In this document: positions 7,995-38,345 of the stretch, piece after piece
Layout of the letters: the number at the start of each line of letters is the position of its first letter
Numbering within the stretch: the stretch's first letter is position 1
Origin: Nitrospirota bacterium
GTDB taxonomy: Bacteria; Nitrospirota; Nitrospiria; Nitrospirales; Nitrospiraceae
Assembly: GCA_030645475.1 (NCBI GenBank)
Contig: JAUSMA010000060.1
Coordinates: 310,001 to 374,000 of the forward strand
DNA: 64,000 nucleotides
Direction of reading: 5' to 3'
Notes under the pieces: model-generated
Seen by the model: the letters and a program-made list of their open reading frames with translations, nothing else
The model's database searches: none
Told to the model about the DNA's origin: nothing
Translations under genes and position numbers: made by a program

Positions 7995-8792
7995 TCAAGC
8001 AACGACCCCGCACTTTCGTGAGAGTCTCCGGCGCTTCAAGAACAGAGAGAGTATCCCAAACCCGGTTGCAAATAACGGAAGTGCGGCGGGCAACGGAACA
8101 GGCGCAACGAGGCTCACTCCAGAAGTGCCGATGATCTGACCTGCCGTAGAAACGGCGACTCGGCCCGAGATAGTTCCGCCGGTCAGACTGATCAGACCCG
8201 AGCCCAATTCCACATTGTGTTGGGCGATCCCCATTCCGGTCGTGACCACTAACCCGCTCGAGCCAGAAATCCCCGCCGTTCCACTCACAATGTTGTTCGG
8301 TCTAATTAGCCCTATGGCTTCAGTCTTGTTCGCCACCACAATCGACCGGGCGCCAGCATCCACCATCCCTCCCACGTTCATTTGATTGGCTGTGAGAGAT
8401 ACCGCCTCTCCGTTTCCCTTGGTCTGTAAGTTCGCGAGTATCATCGTGCCGGTGGCGACCAGATCAAGACCACCGCTGCCAAGCAGGTCGATCGTTTCGG
8501 TGAACGCGATATTGCCCTTCGACAGCAACCCCAACGTGCGGGTTCCGAAGATGGAGAGACTGGTGGCGGTGATGTCATCGAACGCGAAGATGCTCGCGCC
8601 GGATACCGGATCGATCACGCCGGTGTAGGAGGCCCCACCAGTAAGTTGAAGTGTGTCCGTGTTGATGGAGATGGCATCAGACGCGTTTAGGGTCCCCAGC
8701 GACGTGAAGGCCCAGGGATCGAGAACCGCGGCATGAGTTGGGATAGCCCACAGACAGATCGCAACGGTCCAGACACGAGTCGTCCAGCTCAT
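7995..8792 (-). CDS. VPLPA-CTERM (PEP-CTERM-type) sorted protein
   Basis: The protein has 265 residues. An N-terminal signal peptide ends at THA (about residue 22). The body is low in Cys and rich in Gly, Ser, Thr and Ala with repeated beta-strand patterns. The C-terminus holds the tripartite sorting signal: VPLPAALPLFATGFG motif, a hydrophobic helix, then the basic cluster LKRRRLSRK. Such tails are recognised by exosortases, here probably the XrtD-type enzyme at 23894. The product should be exported, cut near the motif and linked to the surface or EPS. Its own role is unknown. A strong Pho-like promoter lies just upstream. Confidence 0.85.
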   Translation of the reverse strand: MSWTTRVWTVAICLWAIPTHAAVLDPWAFTSLGTLNASDAISINTDTLQLTGGASYTGVIDPVSGASIFAFDDITATSLSIFGTRTLGLLSKGNIAFTETIDLLGSGGLDLVATGTMILANLQTKGNGEAVSLTANQMNVGGMVDAGARSIVVANKTEAIGLIRPNNIVSGTAGISGSSGLVVTTGMGIAQHNVELGSGLISLTGGTISGRVAVSTAGQIIGTSGVSLVAPVPLPAALPLFATGFGILSLFLKRRRLSRKCGVVA

Positions 8793-8849: not shown

Positions 8850-8895
8850 ATAATACTGAGGAAGGCGACAGGGCTCCAGTTAAGATTGGGTTAAC
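8850..8895 (-). promoter_or_regulatory. Pho-box promoter of the VPLPA-CTERM gene
   Basis: On the minus strand GTTAAC (8895-8890) and TTAAC (8883-8879) give two TAAC cores exactly 11 bases apart. A -10 element TATTAT lies at 8855-8850, 23 bases past the last repeat. This matches the layout at 10368-10421 and 10468-10522. Confidence 0.6.
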
Positions 8896-9074
8896 GGATG
8901 GAGGCTGCGAGCCTGCTAGCATGAAGCAGCAGCAATGGCACAATCCAGGGTTTCGGCAAGGCTGCTCATACGTGCTGAAATTTACGCACCGGTAATACAC
9001 CTCTAACTGGGGCGCAATGCAGACCAGGTAGGATCATCTTAATAGAAATACAATTACATTGAATGGAGGAACAG

Positions 9075-9458
9075 ATGATTACAGTCGGACAATTGATGAA
9101 GAAAGATCTCGTGACCGTCGATACGGGCACCTCGGTGATCGAGGCGGCCAAGCTGATGAAGGCCTGCAATGTGGGCAGCGTGCTGATCTCTCATGAAGGT
9201 CGTGTGATTGGCATTGTCACCGAATCGGACATCGTCAGGAAGGTCGTCGGCTCGGACCGTGGCCCCTACTTTATTCCTGTCGAAGACATCATGAGCAGCC
9301 CGATTGTCGGAATCGAAGAACGCTGCCCCCTCACCGAAGCGGCAGACTTGATGAACAGGCACCAGACACGGCACCTCGGTGTGACCAAGGGTGGATCGGT
9401 GGTGGGAATCCTCTCCGTTCGCGATTTACTCCGGCCGGTCTCCATCGACGAATTCTAA
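9075..9458 (+). CDS. Tandem CBS-domain protein
   Basis: The protein has 127 residues from ATG 9075, with GGAGGA 4 bases upstream; the ATG at 9063 overlaps that ribosome site and is rejected. It consists of two CBS motifs only: the first about residues 3-58 (QLMKKDLVTVDTGTSVIEAAKLM, GIVTESDIVRKV), the second about 70-125 (DIMSSPIVGIEERCPLTEAADLM, VVGILSVRDLL). Pairs of CBS motifs bind adenine nucleotides such as AMP, ATP or SAM and act as energy or ligand sensors. No partner enzyme is adjacent, so the target is unknown. Confidence 0.85.
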   Translation: MITVGQLMKKDLVTVDTGTSVIEAAKLMKACNVGSVLISHEGRVIGIVTESDIVRKVVGSDRGPYFIPVEDIMSSPIVGIEERCPLTEAADLMNRHQTRHLGVTKGGSVVGILSVRDLLRPVSIDEF

Positions 9459-9650: not shown

Positions 9651-10358
9651 TTAGGCTCTCAGTTTGTAGCCGATACCACGCACGGTGACGATGATTTTTG
9701 GGGTAGCTGGATCCGCTTCGATCTTTTGCCGGAGGGAATGGATGTGGACGTCGAGGGCATGTTCTTCCAGGGCAAACCCGTCGCCCCAGACCCGATTGAG
9801 CATTTCCTGACGGGAGAAGGCCCGGCTGGGCGATTCGAGAAATTGACGAAGGATCTGAAATTCTTTCGGAGTCAGATCGACCAATCGACCGTTGACGGTC
9901 ACTTCGTGGCGGTCCAGGTCCATGCGAAGCGCGCCGGCACTATAGTACGTCGTCGATTCCAGGCGAGGCTCACGCCGCCGCAAGATAGCGCGCACGCGGG
10001 CGACGAGCTCACGAGTATTTTGACTGCAGATGACCAGGTCTACGCCTTGGTCATAATCTCGGATACAGTCGTCTTCGGTACAAGGGACCGTCCCCTCTTG
10101 CACCGCGACAATAGGTACGGCAACGAGAGTCTGGAGTTGGCGCAAATTGGCAAGAGTCCTCTGTTGCCGATCGATGATGATCAGCGAGGGCACGGATGTT
10201 CTGGCTGCCGCATAAGCAGCAGACTTGGTCGTCACGACCGTGCTCTGATATCCGCTCGCGTCGAAAGCCTTCTTGAGCGACTGAGCGAATGGCTCAGCCT
10301 CCATGAAGATCAGAATCGTATTCCGCGCGACGGTCATCGGTGGTGGTGTAGCCAACAT
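9651..10358 (-). CDS. OmpR/PhoB-family response regulator with atypical receiver
   Basis: About 235 residues from ATG 10358; ATG 10337 is also possible and fits the predicted transcript start better. The N-terminal half is a receiver domain with a candidate phosphoacceptor Asp in LIIIDRQQR. The acidic pair near the start is E-A-E (FMEAEPF), and the conserved Lys before RELVARVRA is absent (VICSQNTRELVARV). The C-terminal half is a normal winged-helix domain: LTPKEFQILRQFLESPSRAFSR, then VDVHIHSLRQKIE-like recognition region and a TVRGIGYKL end. It lies divergent from the pstS-like gene and has a Pho-like box in its own promoter. A PhoB-like regulator that controls itself is a good hypothesis. 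No histidine kinase is adjacent. Confidence 0.8.
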   Translation of the reverse strand: MLATPPPMTVARNTILIFMEAEPFAQSLKKAFDASGYQSTVVTTKSAAYAAARTSVPSLIIIDRQQRTLANLRQLQTLVAVPIVAVQEGTVPCTEDDCIRDYDQGVDLVICSQNTRELVARVRAILRRREPRLESTTYYSAGALRMDLDRHEVTVNGRLVDLTPKEFQILRQFLESPSRAFSRQEMLNRVWGDGFALEEHALDVHIHSLRQKIEADPATPKIIVTVRGIGYKLRA

Positions 10359-10367
10359 TACGAGGTG

Positions 10368-10421
10368 ACTATAGACCGGACATGAAAAAATCATCGTTAG
10401 GGTGGTGTTAACTGTCGGTAA
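10368..10421 (-). promoter_or_regulatory. Triple Pho-box promoter of the response regulator
   Basis: On the minus strand TTAC (10421-10418), TAAC (10410-10407) and TAAC (10399-10396) are spaced exactly 11 bases apart. A -10 element, TATAGT, lies at 10373-10368, 22 bases after the last repeat. The arrangement suggests activation by a PhoB-type protein and possible autoregulation. Confidence 0.6.
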
Positions 10422-10467
10422 ACTCCTACACCTCAAGACAAATTGTGCACCCTCATGACTGCCTGGA

Positions 10468-10522
10468 GTTAACGCCGAGTTAACATATCGTTGACCTGGC
10501 AGAAACCTCTGGTTTTTATAAC
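10468..10522 (+). promoter_or_regulatory. Triple Pho-box promoter of the pstS-like gene
   Basis: GTTAAC (10468), GTTAAC (10479) and GTTGAC (10490) are consecutive 11-bp repeats. TATAAC at 10517-10522 is a good -10 element, 21 bases past the last repeat, and no -35 box is needed or seen. This is the clearest example of the motif in the window. Confidence 0.65.
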
Positions 10523-10569
10523 AATAGGATTAGGTACCGTGAAGCAATACTTGATTGGAGCAATGATTG

Positions 10570-11610
10570 ATGGAATATCGCCGATGGATCCTCTGGTCCC
10601 CTCTCATCGTTCTTGGCTTATCGCTCGGACTTGGGTTCGAGGCGTTGGCTCAAGTTCGACCGGAACTAGACCCTCAGATTCCCGCCTACGCCGCTCAGGA
10701 ACAGATTTCCGGGAAGCTCACGGCCGCCGGCTCCGACACGATGAAACCGTTGATCGACGCATGGGTCGGCGATCTTTCTCGCCGGCATCCCGGGATGAAA
10801 ATTACCGCGACAGGAGCGGGATCAGAAACAGGTCTGGAGGCTCTCCTCGCACATCAGACCGAGATCGCCGCGATGTCCCGGCGCATGACGGCTGCAGAGA
10901 TCTCTGTATTCGTCAAGGAATACGGCTACGAACCGACTGAAGTTCCCGTCGCAAACGATGCATTGGCCATCTTCGTTCACAGGGACAATCCGATTACCGG
11001 TTTGTCCCTGGACGAATTGGATGCCATGTTCTGCCGCGAACGGCGGCGCGGCTTGAGTTACGCCGTTGACTCCTGGGGACTCGTTGGACTGATGGACGAA
11101 TGGTTTGACGCTCCTATTCGACTCCATGGACGGAACGGGAAATCCGGCACGAGTTACCTCTTCAGAGAAGAAGTCTGCAAAGGCGGGACGTTTCGCCCTC
11201 AGTTGATCAACGCCCAAGGATCTGCGTCAGTGGTGCTGGACCTGGTCAAGGACCCGCAAGGCATCGGGTTTAGCGCAATCGGTTACCGGACTTCGATGGT
11301 GAAACCCGTTCCGATTGCTTCAGTGAAGGGTGGCCGCTACATCGAGCCGAACTTCCAAACGGCCATGGATGGGTCGTACCCCTTGAGGCGCAACCTCTAT
11401 CTCTATATCGCCAGGCCGCCTAAGACTGCACCGTCGCAGGCCTTGACGGAACTCGTGCGGTTTGCCCTGAGCCAACAAGGCCAGCAACTCGCACTCGATC
11501 ACGGATATTTTCCGCTGTCCCTGGCTGAACTGACACGACTCACATCCAAATGGTCCGGCTCTGTCAAAGCGGTTCAACTTGAGTCGCCTGGCCGTCCGAT
11601 CAGCGAGTAA
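10570..11610 (+). CDS. PstS-like phosphate-binding protein
   Basis: The protein has about 346 residues; TTG at 10567 is an alternative start. A signal peptide (residues 1-28, ending FEALAQ) directs it to the periplasm. PstS/SphX-family features follow: LTAAGSDTMKPLIDAWVGD at the first phosphate-binding loop, SRRMTAAEI, a second loop with GRNGKSGTSYLFRE, and VLDLVKDPQGIGFSAIGYR before the C-terminal domain. It should bind phosphate and deliver it to a Pst ABC transporter, but pstC, pstA and pstB are not adjacent. It may instead be a free-standing scavenging or sensing protein. The upstream triple repeat supports induction under phosphate limitation. Confidence 0.85.
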   Translation: MEYRRWILWSPLIVLGLSLGLGFEALAQVRPELDPQIPAYAAQEQISGKLTAAGSDTMKPLIDAWVGDLSRRHPGMKITATGAGSETGLEALLAHQTEIAAMSRRMTAAEISVFVKEYGYEPTEVPVANDALAIFVHRDNPITGLSLDELDAMFCRERRRGLSYAVDSWGLVGLMDEWFDAPIRLHGRNGKSGTSYLFREEVCKGGTFRPQLINAQGSASVVLDLVKDPQGIGFSAIGYRTSMVKPVPIASVKGGRYIEPNFQTAMDGSYPLRRNLYLYIARPPKTAPSQALTELVRFALSQQGQQLALDHGYFPLSLAELTRLTSKWSGSVKAVQLESPGRPISE

Positions 11611-11646: not shown

Positions 11647-12348
11647 ATGAAACGATCGCTTGCATTCTTTCGCTTCCATGCATGGCTCGCTCTTGGATTC
11701 ACGGCGTTCGTCGGCTGTTCATCAGGGCAATTTCCGACCCTCACCATCTATGAGACGCCGAACGCGTTCGTTCGACTCCAAGCCGATCCCTCTGTTGGAC
11801 AGAATAGCGGACACAGCCATCCGGCCGACATATCAACCGAGCGTATGGCGGCAGTCCTGCGAGGTATCGTGATCCAAGAGCCGCTGGTGCGATTGCCACT
11901 CTACGACGACTTGAGTATTCCGCGCCGGCACCGAGCGTTCGACGAGGATGCTGTCCTCTTTTGGGCTCCGTTGCTGAGCCTGGCCATCGGCAAGGCTACG
12001 CCCGAGGAAGTGGTCACGTTCTACCAGTCCCGGCATGTGTCAGGCGTCAAACGCGAAGTCACGTCAGGCGGGATGTTTCTGGATGGAGAGGACCTGCATG
12101 TCTTGCTGAGCAACAATCGGTCGGACACCCATACCACTGCCGATACCACCGTAGCCGATACAGAGGATGACAGACTAACTCCCCTTCGCTCTCTGACCCC
12201 CCAGAAAGGGACATTGCGGTTCGAGCCACCGGAGTTTCAGCGATCGACAGATTCCTTCGGAGTCGGGAAGCTGCTCAAATGGGATAGGCGCGAGCTGATC
12301 ATTCAGGTGCACCGCCTGCCCGTGAAGCCAGTCTCTACGGCGCCGTAG
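11647..12348 (+). CDS. Lipoprotein of unknown function
   Basis: The protein has 233 residues. The N-terminus is basic (MKRSLAFFRF), followed by a hydrophobic stretch ending in the lipobox AFVGCSS, cysteine near residue 24. The mature part contains FDEDAVLFWAPLLSLAIGKATPEEVVTFY and a low-complexity Thr/Asp-rich linker (about residues 160-175). No family is recognised. It lies 36 bases after the pstS-like gene on the same strand, so the two are probably co-transcribed and share phosphate control. Confidence 0.65.
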   Translation: MKRSLAFFRFHAWLALGFTAFVGCSSGQFPTLTIYETPNAFVRLQADPSVGQNSGHSHPADISTERMAAVLRGIVIQEPLVRLPLYDDLSIPRRHRAFDEDAVLFWAPLLSLAIGKATPEEVVTFYQSRHVSGVKREVTSGGMFLDGEDLHVLLSNNRSDTHTTADTTVADTEDDRLTPLRSLTPQKGTLRFEPPEFQRSTDSFGVGKLLKWDRRELIIQVHRLPVKPVSTAP

Positions 12349-12385: not shown

Positions 12386-13819
12386 TTAAAAACTCCACTG
12401 AAGCTGAAATCGGACCAAGTTGCCTGACTGAAGCTGATAGGGGGTCTGGATACAAGCCGGCGCCCCTATCCCCAGAGAATTGTCGGCACAGGATGCGGGA
12501 GTCGCGGACGAGTCTGCTGACGTCCGCTGTGTCCAGGTATACTCCAACGTCAGTTCGAGCGCCTGATTGAACCGATACTCCAAGCCAACCTCCACCTCCC
12601 GCACCGTATTCTTCGGAGCATTCGCTTCGTGCTTCTTCGCGCCATAATATTCCTGCGCGCGGACAAACGGCATGACGCTCTCACAGAGACTTTCACAACG
12701 GTAGTTATAGAACAACTGAAGATATCCCCCCCGGAGGGTGCCGCTTGTGACCTCTGTCCTGGCTCGGTTCAATTCAGGGCCCCGCCCGATCGTGTATTCC
12801 CCTTGAAGACCGAAGGGCTGGGGAAAGAGCACGAAGTGCCAGGCGACCCGCTCGTCCAGATAATTTCCACCGTTTCTCAGAATTGGCGAAAACCCTCCCA
12901 ACACCTGCTCGTTGGGAACTCCTGCGAGAGGCACCACCGGCGCCGTCGAAACGTTGAATTGTCCGGTATAGGCATCCATACCGACCTGAAACATTTGTCC
13001 ATTGGGGAACTCCATCGGATACATGGAGTGGAATACGACGTGCTTGTCCTTGTTCGCATCGCGCTTGTTAGCCGTCTGCCCATTATAAACGCCGATGCCG
13101 AGCATGCCGTAATCACCTGAGCCCTTGAGTCCGCTGTCTACGAGACGACGGAATCGTTCTCGCACATGTGTCGGCGCATAGTAGAGAAACAGGCCGAGGT
13201 CCCGTTCATTGTTTTGGGCGCTGTTGATCGCATCGTTCCGGTCTAGGCCCAGGCGGTTCTGACTGGACTGCATGTTCTCGAACCCAAACGGCACCTTCGA
13301 CAGTCCGGCCCTGATTCGCCATTCCTTGTTTTCCGTGAGAAAGAGATCGGCATACCAGTCACGTAACGTGACAGTCTGTTCGGTCCCGGCCAAGAGACTG
13401 GCAAACTCCGGTTGGACATAGATGAACACACGCTCATGCGGTTGTCCGCTGACGATCACACGAGCCCGGCGCAAGAAGAACTCATCGTTCTTTCCGATCG
13501 AGCGGTCTCCCTGCTGATTGATCAACAGATTATTATTGGTGGAGTTGTTATAGCGGAATTGGGTATAGCCACGTATGCTGATTTTTTCGTACCAGCGCTC
13601 TCGAATCGGCACATCGCCGACTCCCCGACTTTCCTCGAACTCCTTGACCTGCCGCTTTTCCTCATCGGCCTTGAGCTGAACCCACTGATCGACCGTGATT
13701 TGCTTGTTTTCCAACAGGAGATCTTCAAGTTTTCCTGCATATCCATCCGATGCCCCGAACAGGATCGATGCGATGAGGCCTCCTGCCAGACAGACTGCAC
13801 GACTCAATCCGATTTTCAT
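12386..13819 (-). CDS. OprO/OprP-type outer-membrane porin
   Basis: The protein has 477 residues. It has a signal peptide (residues 1-28, ending DGYAG), a short helical coiled segment around residues 30-65 (LLLENKQITVDQWVQLKADE), then a long beta-barrel with many aromatic strand ends and a terminal Phe (FQLQWSF), as in outer-membrane porins. Diagnostic stretches are GYTQFRYNN, FFLRRARVIVSGQ, YVQPEF and DWYADLFLT followed by RAGLSKVPFGFENMQSS, matching the phosphate-selective porin O/P family. OprO and OprP carry phosphate or polyphosphate in Pseudomonas; here anion or phosphate uptake is inferred. GGAGGGCGG precedes the ATG. The Pho-like lattice upstream supports the assignment. Confidence 0.85.
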   Translation of the reverse strand: MKIGLSRAVCLAGGLIASILFGASDGYAGKLEDLLLENKQITVDQWVQLKADEEKRQVKEFEESRGVGDVPIRERWYEKISIRGYTQFRYNNSTNNNLLINQQGDRSIGKNDEFFLRRARVIVSGQPHERVFIYVQPEFASLLAGTEQTVTLRDWYADLFLTENKEWRIRAGLSKVPFGFENMQSSQNRLGLDRNDAINSAQNNERDLGLFLYYAPTHVRERFRRLVDSGLKGSGDYGMLGIGVYNGQTANKRDANKDKHVVFHSMYPMEFPNGQMFQVGMDAYTGQFNVSTAPVVPLAGVPNEQVLGGFSPILRNGGNYLDERVAWHFVLFPQPFGLQGEYTIGRGPELNRARTEVTSGTLRGGYLQLFYNYRCESLCESVMPFVRAQEYYGAKKHEANAPKNTVREVEVGLEYRFNQALELTLEYTWTQRTSADSSATPASCADNSLGIGAPACIQTPYQLQSGNLVRFQLQWSF

Positions 13820-25651: not shown

Positions 25652-25679
25652 TCAAGTTTGTGTTAACAAAATGTTAAAA
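25652..25679 (-). promoter_or_regulatory. Pho-box promoter element of EPS operon 2
   Basis: On the minus strand TAAC cores lie at 25676-25673 and 25665-25662, exactly 11 bases apart. The block 25652-25679 differs from 34778-34805 at only two positions. Both copies lie 110-150 bases before an EPS operon, which strongly suggests a shared control element. Confidence 0.6.
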
Positions 25680-34777: not shown

Positions 34778-34805
34778 TCAAGTTTGTGTTAACAAATCGT
34801 TAAAA
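34778..34805 (-). promoter_or_regulatory. Pho-box promoter element of EPS operon 1
   Basis: TAAC cores on the minus strand lie at 34802-34799 and 34791-34788, 11 bases apart. The first 19 bases (34778-34796) are identical to 25652-25670 and the next nine differ at two positions. The remainder of 34631-34938 holds no gene. Confidence 0.6.
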
Positions 34806-36746: not shown

Positions 36747-38345
36747 TTATGGCCTATCGTTCACGGCTGTCAAACATGCCGGCACGCCAGTCACGTTGGA
36801 CTTCCAGTTAACCGGGCCCTTGTCTTGGGACTTCGTCACGTGCATTTCCTGTGGCGAAACCCAATACCGCCCGACGTTAGGCAGATTGTTGATGATGGTT
36901 GCGCTTTCCGCCTGGTTCAAGAATGCACTGATGAGAATCTGTTCGTTCGCGCCGGCTGGAGGCACATTCCGGGTGTTGAACGCTTCGAACACCCAGTACT
37001 GCTGTTTGCCGCAGCGAACATTTTCCTTCTCGTTGCCAAAATAGGCCGCTTCTTCGACCGGGGGCACATGGCCGTTGGCGCTATCGTTGCGCAACGCCTT
37101 GCCACCGTCCACCGCCACCACATAGCCGGCAGCCGGACTCACAGTTGCAGCCTGTTCCGCTTCCATATAGGCGGCCGCGGACGGATGGGCCGGGCGCGCG
37201 CCCGGGAATGGGAACGGATCGTTCGAGGGAATGGTCGGGCTGGCGTTGCCCTGGATGCAGTCCCGCACATCGCTGTTCGAGATACCGGACAGCGTCGTCG
37301 GCCCTGCTGTTGGAGTCGCCGGCGTACCCAGCGTCAAATTGAAGCTGCCGCTGCCGGTTGGCGTTTGGCCGGTATGCTCGTTCGCATCCTTCATCAAGGT
37401 CTGATCGAAGGCCGCCTTCGTGCCGGATCCGGCACGACGCTGGCACAAGACGATCGTCTGATTGTCCGAGCCATTCACGACCCCGTCACCGTTGGTATCG
37501 GCCCCGATTCCACTGAACTGGGTCCAACGTGTCACGTTACGGGAAAAGAGCGCCTCGATCTGCAACTGCGTCAAGTTGCGAACCGGGCCGATCACGGAAC
37601 CGCCGGCCGGATTGATCAATTTCACCGCGCTGCCCAGCACGATGGAGAAGGGCACCACGACTGGACGGCTCGAAGTGATATTGCCGTCGGCGCGAGGACC
37701 GACGACGATCGATCCCTGTAACGTCGACCCGATATATCCGACCGAGGTCTGGCCGAATGAGGTGGCCGCCACGTCAGACACGCCCAGATTCACCACCAGA
37801 GCTCCTGCCGCATTGGTGGTCGGGTTTGCACTGAATTGCGTACAGCTGGGATAGAACTGTCTCGTCCGACCCAGCGCATCGAGTTCCGTCGTCGGTGCGC
37901 CGCAAGACGCGGGATTCTCAAGGACGTACACCTCCCGGGCCGCCGGGTTCGGGGTCACGCCGTCATTGTTGACCGTCGGGAACGCGTTCGGTTTATCGAT
38001 CCCGCCTGATGAGCTAGTGGATTGATACCGCACCACGATGCTGGGCAAGCCAACGACGTTGGTGGCTTCGCAGACCCAGGTAATGAACTTAGAATTGGCC
38101 AGACGATTCCCCGCCGGGCCGAGCGAGCCGTCCATGAAAATACGCGGCGCAGTTGCGCCAGGCACTAGGGTCGCGCCCGTCCCCGTTGGATTGTTACAAA
38201 GGGTGACCGGCACTTCTTCGACGAATGGTTTGGCCGCCGAGGCGCCGGCGATGTTCAAGACCGTCTGGGCCTGGGCCGACACAGCCACTCCTGCAATCGA
38301 CGCCAGCGCAGCGAGGATTGCCATGGATGTCTTCATTGATCTCAT
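36747..38345 (-). CDS. Large PstS-like periplasmic binding protein with dockerin-like loop
   Basis: The protein has 532 residues, with AGGAG 8 bases before the ATG. The signal peptide ends at AQAQT (about residue 27). The start of the mature domain, LNIAGASAAKPFVEEV, and RRAGSGTKAAFDQ near residue 300 match the two anion-binding loops of PstS-type proteins. At 532 residues it is much longer than PstS (about 340). Between them, GADTNGDGVVNGSDN is a perfect dockerin/EF-hand calcium loop. It may bind phosphate or another anion and could be surface-attached. It lies among VPLPA-CTERM genes, but it has no sorting tail of its own. Confidence 0.72.
   Translation of the reverse strand: MRSMKTSMAILAALASIAGVAVSAQAQTVLNIAGASAAKPFVEEVPVTLCNNPTGTGATLVPGATAPRIFMDGSLGPAGNRLANSKFITWVCEATNVVGLPSIVVRYQSTSSSGGIDKPNAFPTVNNDGVTPNPAAREVYVLENPASCGAPTTELDALGRTRQFYPSCTQFSANPTTNAAGALVVNLGVSDVAATSFGQTSVGYIGSTLQGSIVVGPRADGNITSSRPVVVPFSIVLGSAVKLINPAGGSVIGPVRNLTQLQIEALFSRNVTRWTQFSGIGADTNGDGVVNGSDNQTIVLCQRRAGSGTKAAFDQTLMKDANEHTGQTPTGSGSFNLTLGTPATPTAGPTTLSGISNSDVRDCIQGNASPTIPSNDPFPFPGARPAHPSAAAYMEAEQAATVSPAAGYVVAVDGGKALRNDSANGHVPPVEEAAYFGNEKENVRCGKQQYWVFEAFNTRNVPPAGANEQILISAFLNQAESATIINNLPNVGRYWVSPQEMHVTKSQDKGPVNWKSNVTGVPACLTAVNDRP

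Follow-up and report, generated by a model that had tools for sequence, protein, structure and literature searches.

The window, by which we mean the whole stretch of DNA analysed here, comprises 64,000 nucleotides (positions 310001-374000 of contig C60) of a 3.75-Mb Nitrospirota genome that is 99.92% complete. It carries the gene of a 235-amino acid regulator, P0001, which starts with an ATG at position 10358 and is transcribed divergently from a gene coding for a pstS-like periplasmic binding protein. The features of this locus, in window coordinates, are the following:

9063-9458, plus strand: gene for a CBS-domain protein (Pfam match), a recurrent neighbour of the regulator
9651-10358, minus strand: gene for P0001, a pseudo-receiver regulator of the OmpR/PhoB family
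9654-9938, minus strand: winged-helix DNA-binding domain, P0001 residues 141-235 (Trans_reg_C match)
9972-10319, minus strand: receiver-like (βα)5 domain, P0001 residues 14-129, with a degenerate active site (M19, E20, D63, R64, Q87, S112)
10396-10423, minus strand: Pho-like direct repeat GTTTAC-N5-GTTAAC-N5-CCTAAC, within the promoter of P0001 itself
10468-10506, plus strand: GTTAAC-N5-GTTAAC-N5-GTTGAC-N5-AGAAAC, the variant Pho box that precedes the pstS-like gene
10567-11610, plus strand: divergent gene for the pstS-like periplasmic binding protein (PBP_like_2, TIGR02136)
11647-12348, plus strand: lipoprotein-like gene (an assignment by eye, Pfam giving no match) that recurrently accompanies the pstS-like gene
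12386-13819, minus strand: convergent gene for a phosphate-selective porin O/P family protein (Pfam match)

The winged helix of P0001, which an initial annotation of the sequence had judged to be normal, matched Trans_reg_C with 90.8 bits against a cut-off of 26.2, and was the sole domain among the accepted Pfam matches. The Pfam receiver model PF00072 gave no match with P0001, and neither did PF21695 (GlnR_1st) at a threshold of 0.01; in alignment A1, where five of the 45 proteins are canonical regulators, PF00072 matched eight proteins and PF21695 a single one, weakly (E 0.0083). The best NCBIfam match of P0001 was PhoB (TIGR02154), at 130 bits far below the curated cut-off of 296.2 bits for the PhoB equivalog, and the nearest solved relative by sequence was RegX3. 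An AlphaFold2 model, built from 45 aligned proteins that included five canonical regulators, had a mean pLDDT of 82.8, and in it a linker of low confidence joins a (βα)5 receiver to a winged helix; with a pTM of 0.51, the arrangement of the domains relative to each other is unsure. P0001 thus has both the winged helix and the N-terminal receiver fold that define the OmpR/PhoB family. Among whole OmpR/PhoB regulators the model matched GlnR, CosR (8uvx/8uvk), RitR and the atypical orphan 2hqr, which we take to be HP1043, and it also matched isolated receivers, among them PhoB 1zes, for which the Z score was 16.8 and the rmsd 1.8 over 114 aligned residues.

The active-site positions of P0001 were located by alignment with the two canonical PhoB proteins of the same genome, which was gap-free for the acidic pair; the Thr place (position 87) was assigned from the motif and from strand 4 of the model. 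The phosphoacceptor Asp is present (Asp63), as had been stated, and the conserved Lys is indeed missing, its place (position 112) being occupied by Ser. The acidic pair had been read as E-A-E, and that reading was shifted by one: the pair is Met19-Glu20, followed by A21 and E22, so that one acidic residue of two is lost and the degeneracy stands. Alignment with PhoB restored neither the Lys nor the two acidic residues. Three further features had gone unmentioned in the initial annotation, namely Gln87 at the Thr place, Val109 at the Tyr place, and an Arg directly after the Asp.

To define the conservation of these positions we counted residues in 52 aligned proteins, P0001 and 51 relatives, some of which are near copies (L049, with a broken frame, was left out). 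The active-site Lys was found in none of the 52 members, and the full set (two acidic residues, Asp, Thr/Ser and Lys) was intact in none. The Asp63 position holds Asp in 44, Glu in seven and Gly in one, and it is followed by Arg (R64 in P0001) in 50 members and by His in the other two. At the second acidic place (Glu20 in P0001), Arg or Lys is found in 26 members and Glu in three, with no letter there in three rows. Positions D107, R116, R127 and R128 are invariant, and E117 is kept in 47 of 52; we expect all five to lie on the dimer face. The E198-E199 pair of the transactivation loop is present in all 52. P0001 therefore has a receiver-type domain without the key phosphotransfer residues, which is how a pseudo-receiver, or atypical response regulator, is defined in the available part of PMC12632262. 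We conclude that: i) the degenerate receiver is a trait of the whole Nitrospira family of P0001, and ii) P0001 belongs among the atypical OmpR/PhoB regulators.

Relatives of P0001 with 41-91% identity were found at loci L003-L050. Nearly all of these records are titled Nitrospira or Nitrospirae/Nitrospirota (one is titled Nitrosospira), and the named ones include N. moscoviensis and Ca. N. defluvii. An ortholog (E 1e-49 or better) is present in 68 of 175 genomes of the family. The identity of the divergent gene, proposed earlier to be pstS-like, was borne out by a PBP_like_2 match of 103.6 bits in Pfam, with TIGR02136 at 185.6 bits, under its cut-off of 206.6. The neighbourhood is conserved: at the 29 nearer loci (L003-L031, some of them on short contigs) the regulator adjoins the pstS-like gene in 26, the CBS gene in 26, the porin gene in 24 and the lipoprotein-like gene in 19, and regulator and pstS-like gene are divergent in 26. 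A related porin gene adjoins the regulator at 11 of the 13 loci L033-L045. The pstS-like gene (E 1e-80 or better) is carried by 38 of the 175 genomes, 36 of which also carry the regulator; of the 43 places where the gene occurs, 32 have the regulator at a distance of no more than 1.3 kb. The suggestion that P0001 senses phosphate in an unusual way is thus upheld as far as its link to phosphate genes is concerned; the repeats between the two genes do not serve as proof of sensing by P0001. N. moscoviensis NSP M-1 (NZ_CP011801.1) has two P0001 relatives, L015 and L042, which their contig ranges place ∼23 kb from each other; the latter adjoins pstSCAB-phoU. Elsewhere in the window, a large protein of the exopolysaccharide region (36747-38345, minus strand) shows a weak match to the PstS family (TIGR02136, 27.9 bits against the cut-off of 206.6).

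The genome codes for six winged-helix regulators of the OmpR/PhoB type. Three of them adjoin a kinase; the others are P0001, a canonical PhoB near pstSCAB-phoU, and, on contig C69, a fusion protein that is described below. As had been noted before, P0001 has no partner kinase nearby, the nearest kinase-like match on the same contig being ∼55 kb away. On contig C14 a PhoB is adjoined by a PhoR-like kinase (310.6 bits against a cut-off of 334.2), and kinase-like matches in the genome number in the dozens, 43 of them to TIGR02966. The second canonical PhoB is encoded close to pstSCAB-phoU, and this group of genes lies upstream of the window at a distance of ∼3-14 kb (pstC, pstA and pstB named by eye). 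This protein (C60:305832-306584, equivalent to L105:11832-12584) has intact active-site residues and no adjoining kinase, and may share the PhoR-like kinase of contig C14.

Repeats had been reported at 10396-10495, and the stretch between the regulator and the pstS-like gene indeed contains two arrays of Pho-box-like direct repeats with an 11-bp period. In the 3.75-Mb genome, the pattern GTTAACN5GTTAAC with at most one mismatch had seven matches, against two for the reversed control pattern, and three of the seven are inside this intergenic stretch. When 49 upstream regions were subjected to a dyad test, the strongest signal came from TTA/TAA-type pairs at the spacing of the 11-bp repeat. On the basis of this test and of the reversed-pattern control, we rejected the idea that the repeats are due to chance. 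The exact GTTAAC-N5-GTTAAC pair was present in 54 of the 175 family genomes, and its reversed control in seven. When the surroundings of 32 fetched regions were analysed, the pair was also found in front of canonical pst genes in genomes that lack the regulator, and the idea that it is a private site of P0001 was therefore rejected. The GTTAAC half-site pair is a general Pho box of the Nitrospira family and alone does not implicate P0001; since it is present without the regulator, canonical PhoB may suffice at the site. In the regulator's own promoter, an array of two half-sites between -140 and -15 was observed in 23 of 34 clade members (L075 being counted by its other box only), with a shuffled mean of 0.005. 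This Pho-like array suggests that P0001 is probably made under phosphate limitation.

The whole box was then compared in 87 promoters with one motif model, whose seed was a half-site pattern with position 2 open. Four classes were distinguished: pstS-like genes linked to the regulator (class A), pstS-like genes not within 1.3 kb of a regulator (class B), and canonical pstS genes of genomes with (class C) or without (class D) the regulator. Loci L012, L019 and L022, which have no adjacent pstS-like match, are outside the 27 linked promoters, and four promoters (three of class C and one of class D) scored below the threshold of at least 10 and were left out. Position 2 of the third half-site was G in 1/27 boxes of class A (T in 22), 11/11 of class B, 18/19 of class C and 24/26 of class D; without the score threshold, the counts were 1/27, 11/11, 18/22 and 25/27. 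The difference between the regulator-linked boxes (1/27) and all others (53/56) has a Fisher p of 3.9e-17, a value that ignores kinship, as do the counts themselves, in which some boxes are near copies. The class B boxes agree less closely with the motif (scores 12-20), which makes their register less sure.

According to the accessible part of PMC3973317, Arg201 of PhoB hydrogen-bonds a guanine of the half-site, and Thr194 and Val197 touch thymines. The recognition helix of P0001 reads ALDVHIHSLRQ, with S208 in the place of Arg201. When aligned to the PhoB proteins of the same genome, the 52 family members have Ser (45) or Ala (7) at this place, and all 52 have Ala at the place of Thr194. This correspondence between a missing Arg and a missing G is the best evidence for recognition of the variant box by P0001. 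It is partly contradicted by a distant branch (L033, L034, L040, L041 and L045), which has the same recognition helix and yet a G-type third half-site; in these loci the regulator-side box faces the porin gene.

These observations bear on the strongest competing explanation, that canonical PhoB, in either copy, binds both arrays and exerts all phosphate control, the target of P0001 lying elsewhere. The PhoR-like/PhoB pair on contig C14 and the second PhoB near pst-phoU would provide for this, as foreseen in the initial annotation, and they could account for the general box, a type that precedes pstS in genomes without P0001 orthologs. They leave aside the third half-site, which differs near the regulator while the unlinked pstS-like copies have G in all cases, and the fact that regulator and pstS-like gene stay together. 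We consider this explanation unlikely, if still worth serious attention, and the variant third half-site near the regulator favours a separate binder.

The reading that we prefer, with a probability of about 0.5, is that P0001 would be a phosphorylation-independent, second-tier Pho regulator that resembles GlnR, is controlled by its amount and activates the pstS-like operon. The sequence, the lost active-site residues, their conservation, the gene neighbourhood and the box classes are observed; we infer that P0001 is not phosphorylated, that it dimerises, that it is the protein bound at the variant box, and that it activates rather than represses. P0001 would most likely act without Asp phosphorylation, Asp63 and Arg64 probably forming a charge pair of structural role, which would keep the receiver competent for dimerisation, through an α4-β5-α5 face as in GlnR. 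Its output would then be set by the quantity made. Canonical PhoR-PhoB, and perhaps P0001 itself, would probably drive its synthesis under phosphate limitation, and P0001 would in turn probably activate the divergent pstS-like/lipoprotein operon through the variant Pho box. It is more likely that P0001 acts downstream of PhoB, or by its own amount, than that it senses phosphate directly.

Two other ways of switching P0001 were weighed. A thiol or metal switch, in which Cys93, Cys98 and Cys111 set dimerisation by redox state or metal, is suggested by the position of the three residues at or next to α4 and β5 of the model, and by their conservation: all three are present in 34 of 52 members (singly in 44, 39 and 40), and no other Cys position is filled in more than six. 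RitR and Hp1021 are named as Cys-switched atypical regulators in the part of PMC12632262 available to us, but the Cys of RitR sits in the linker, and five of the 52 members lack all three residues, with the neighbourhood kept in L025, L029, L040 and L045, which makes such a switch improbable. That P0001 still works as a slow phospho-switch, served by a kinase encoded far away, is very improbable, for although D63 and E20 are retained, kinase-like matches in the genome run to dozens and, as worded in the accessible text of PMC12632262, changes of the acidic pair, Thr or Lys need not abolish phosphorylation, here Lys, Thr and the switch aromatic are jointly lost, the Asp is Glu or Gly in 8/52, the second acidic place is basic in half of the members and acidic in three, and no kinase is adjacent.

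The preferred, GlnR-like reading of P0001 draws on what is described in the consulted part of PMC10704036 for actinomycete GlnR. There, Asp-50 is unphosphorylated, is paired with Arg-52 and Thr-9, and is required for homodimerisation. Like P0001, GlnR is a nutrient regulator that has kept the Asp and lost the pocket, has an Arg near the Asp in the β3-α3 loop and is associated with 11-nt repeats, and in P0001, too, the Asp and the Arg may stand in for the pocket; unlike P0001, it responds to nitrogen rather than phosphate, and its Arg is at D+2 and not at D+1 (PMC10704036). The GlnR chains compared also keep Arg-Arg in the recognition helix, where P0001 has His-Ser. E. coli-type PhoB and mycobacterial RegX3 share with P0001 sequence relatedness, a phosphate neighbourhood and direct repeats of the Pho type, but in P0001 the phosphorylation site is not intact and the base-contact residues are changed. 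HP1043 (2hqr) and CosR resemble P0001 in full-length fold and in their degenerate receivers; ChxR was likened to it from literature descriptions, as far as these are given in the available text of PMC12632262 and PMC3960148. All three come from other lineages and have other targets. Among the titles and abstract beginnings searched, no paper was found on the Nitrospira P0001 regulator or on a fusion of PEP-CTERM and winged helix.

The search for the variant box also led to other promoters of the window. The pattern KTTAACN5GTTAACN6TTGA is matched perfectly at three places of the genome. All three are inside the window, ahead of the pstS-like gene, of the gene for an exosortase and of that for a glycosyltransferase; when up to two mismatches are allowed there are five matches, against one for the reversed control. 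Two letters of the pattern were widened after the exosortase and glycosyltransferase sites had been seen, both of which had been found earlier with the two-half-site pattern. These two sites share the box TTTAAC-N5-GTTAAC-ACAAA-CTTGA (25652-25678 and 34778-34804, both on the minus strand), and the third half-site of the exosortase promoter is CTTGAT. The exosortase is of the XrtD (VPLPA) type, with 519.4 bits for a cut-off of 400. Next to the P0001 locus, a VPLPA/PEP-CTERM-like gene (by eye; 7995-8792, minus strand) is divergent from the CBS gene, and GTTAAG-N5-GTTAAC is found between them at 8879-8895.

The exosortase site was kept in 20/20 genomes (19 fetched and our own) with a close copy of the exosortase (67-100% identity), 11 with and nine without a P0001 ortholog, and was absent from 20/20 fetched promoters of more distant copies, ten with and ten without the ortholog. 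Scored as whole boxes, the exosortase sites agree with the canonical matrix at least as well as with that of P0001. Control of the exosortase/exopolysaccharide operons of the window by P0001 was accordingly rejected or weakened, as the site does not track P0001; its independence of P0001 makes it more likely a site of the fusion protein or of PhoB.

The fusion proteins consist of a signal-like N-terminal segment, a hydrophobic PEP-CTERM-like stretch (by eye), a pseudo-receiver and a winged helix. Model PF07589 was detected in two of six scanned fusions, both below the cut-off, the best being L154 (residues 190-214, E 0.0011, 19.4 against 20.7 bits). In a tree of 51 regulators, the P0001 family and the fusion proteins fall on one branch (100/99) apart from the canonical regulators, and the ten fusions form one clade (100/99), while the order among the P0001-type branches was left unresolved; in this tree one row (can_L038_83) contained a stop, and long branches meet at the join to the canonical subgroup. 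The fusion regulators are encoded at L107:2091-3575 (our genome, contig C69), L150-L157 and L139. The one of our genome adjoins PEP-CTERM-like genes (by eye), and in four genomes (G057, G062, G069 and G129) the fusion is, by coordinates, ∼12 kb from an XrtD-type exosortase. It is conceivable that the fusion is a membrane-tethered transcription factor gated by exosortase. A wider proposal, which is possible but tentative, is that a single PhoB-derived pseudo-receiver lineage of the Nitrospira family, in which the phospho-switch and the guanine-reading Arg were lost together, has split into two forms that have the same altered DNA specificity: the soluble P0001, acting in a second tier of Pho regulation on a box variant of its own, and the fusion behind an exported PEP-CTERM-like segment, as an exopolysaccharide transcription factor that could be gated by exosortase processing at the membrane.

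How pseudo-receivers are switched is presented as an open question in the available part of PMC12632262. The P0001 family would be a natural test set for it, with orthologs in 68 of the 175 family genomes, a canonical PhoB in the same cell (in our own genome), a pair of promoters that differ from those of pstS at one readable half-site, and a sister clade fused to an exported segment. The genus Nitrospira includes nitrite-oxidising and comammox species. If our reading of P0001 is true, PhoR-PhoB would not be alone in regulating phosphate uptake in Nitrospira.
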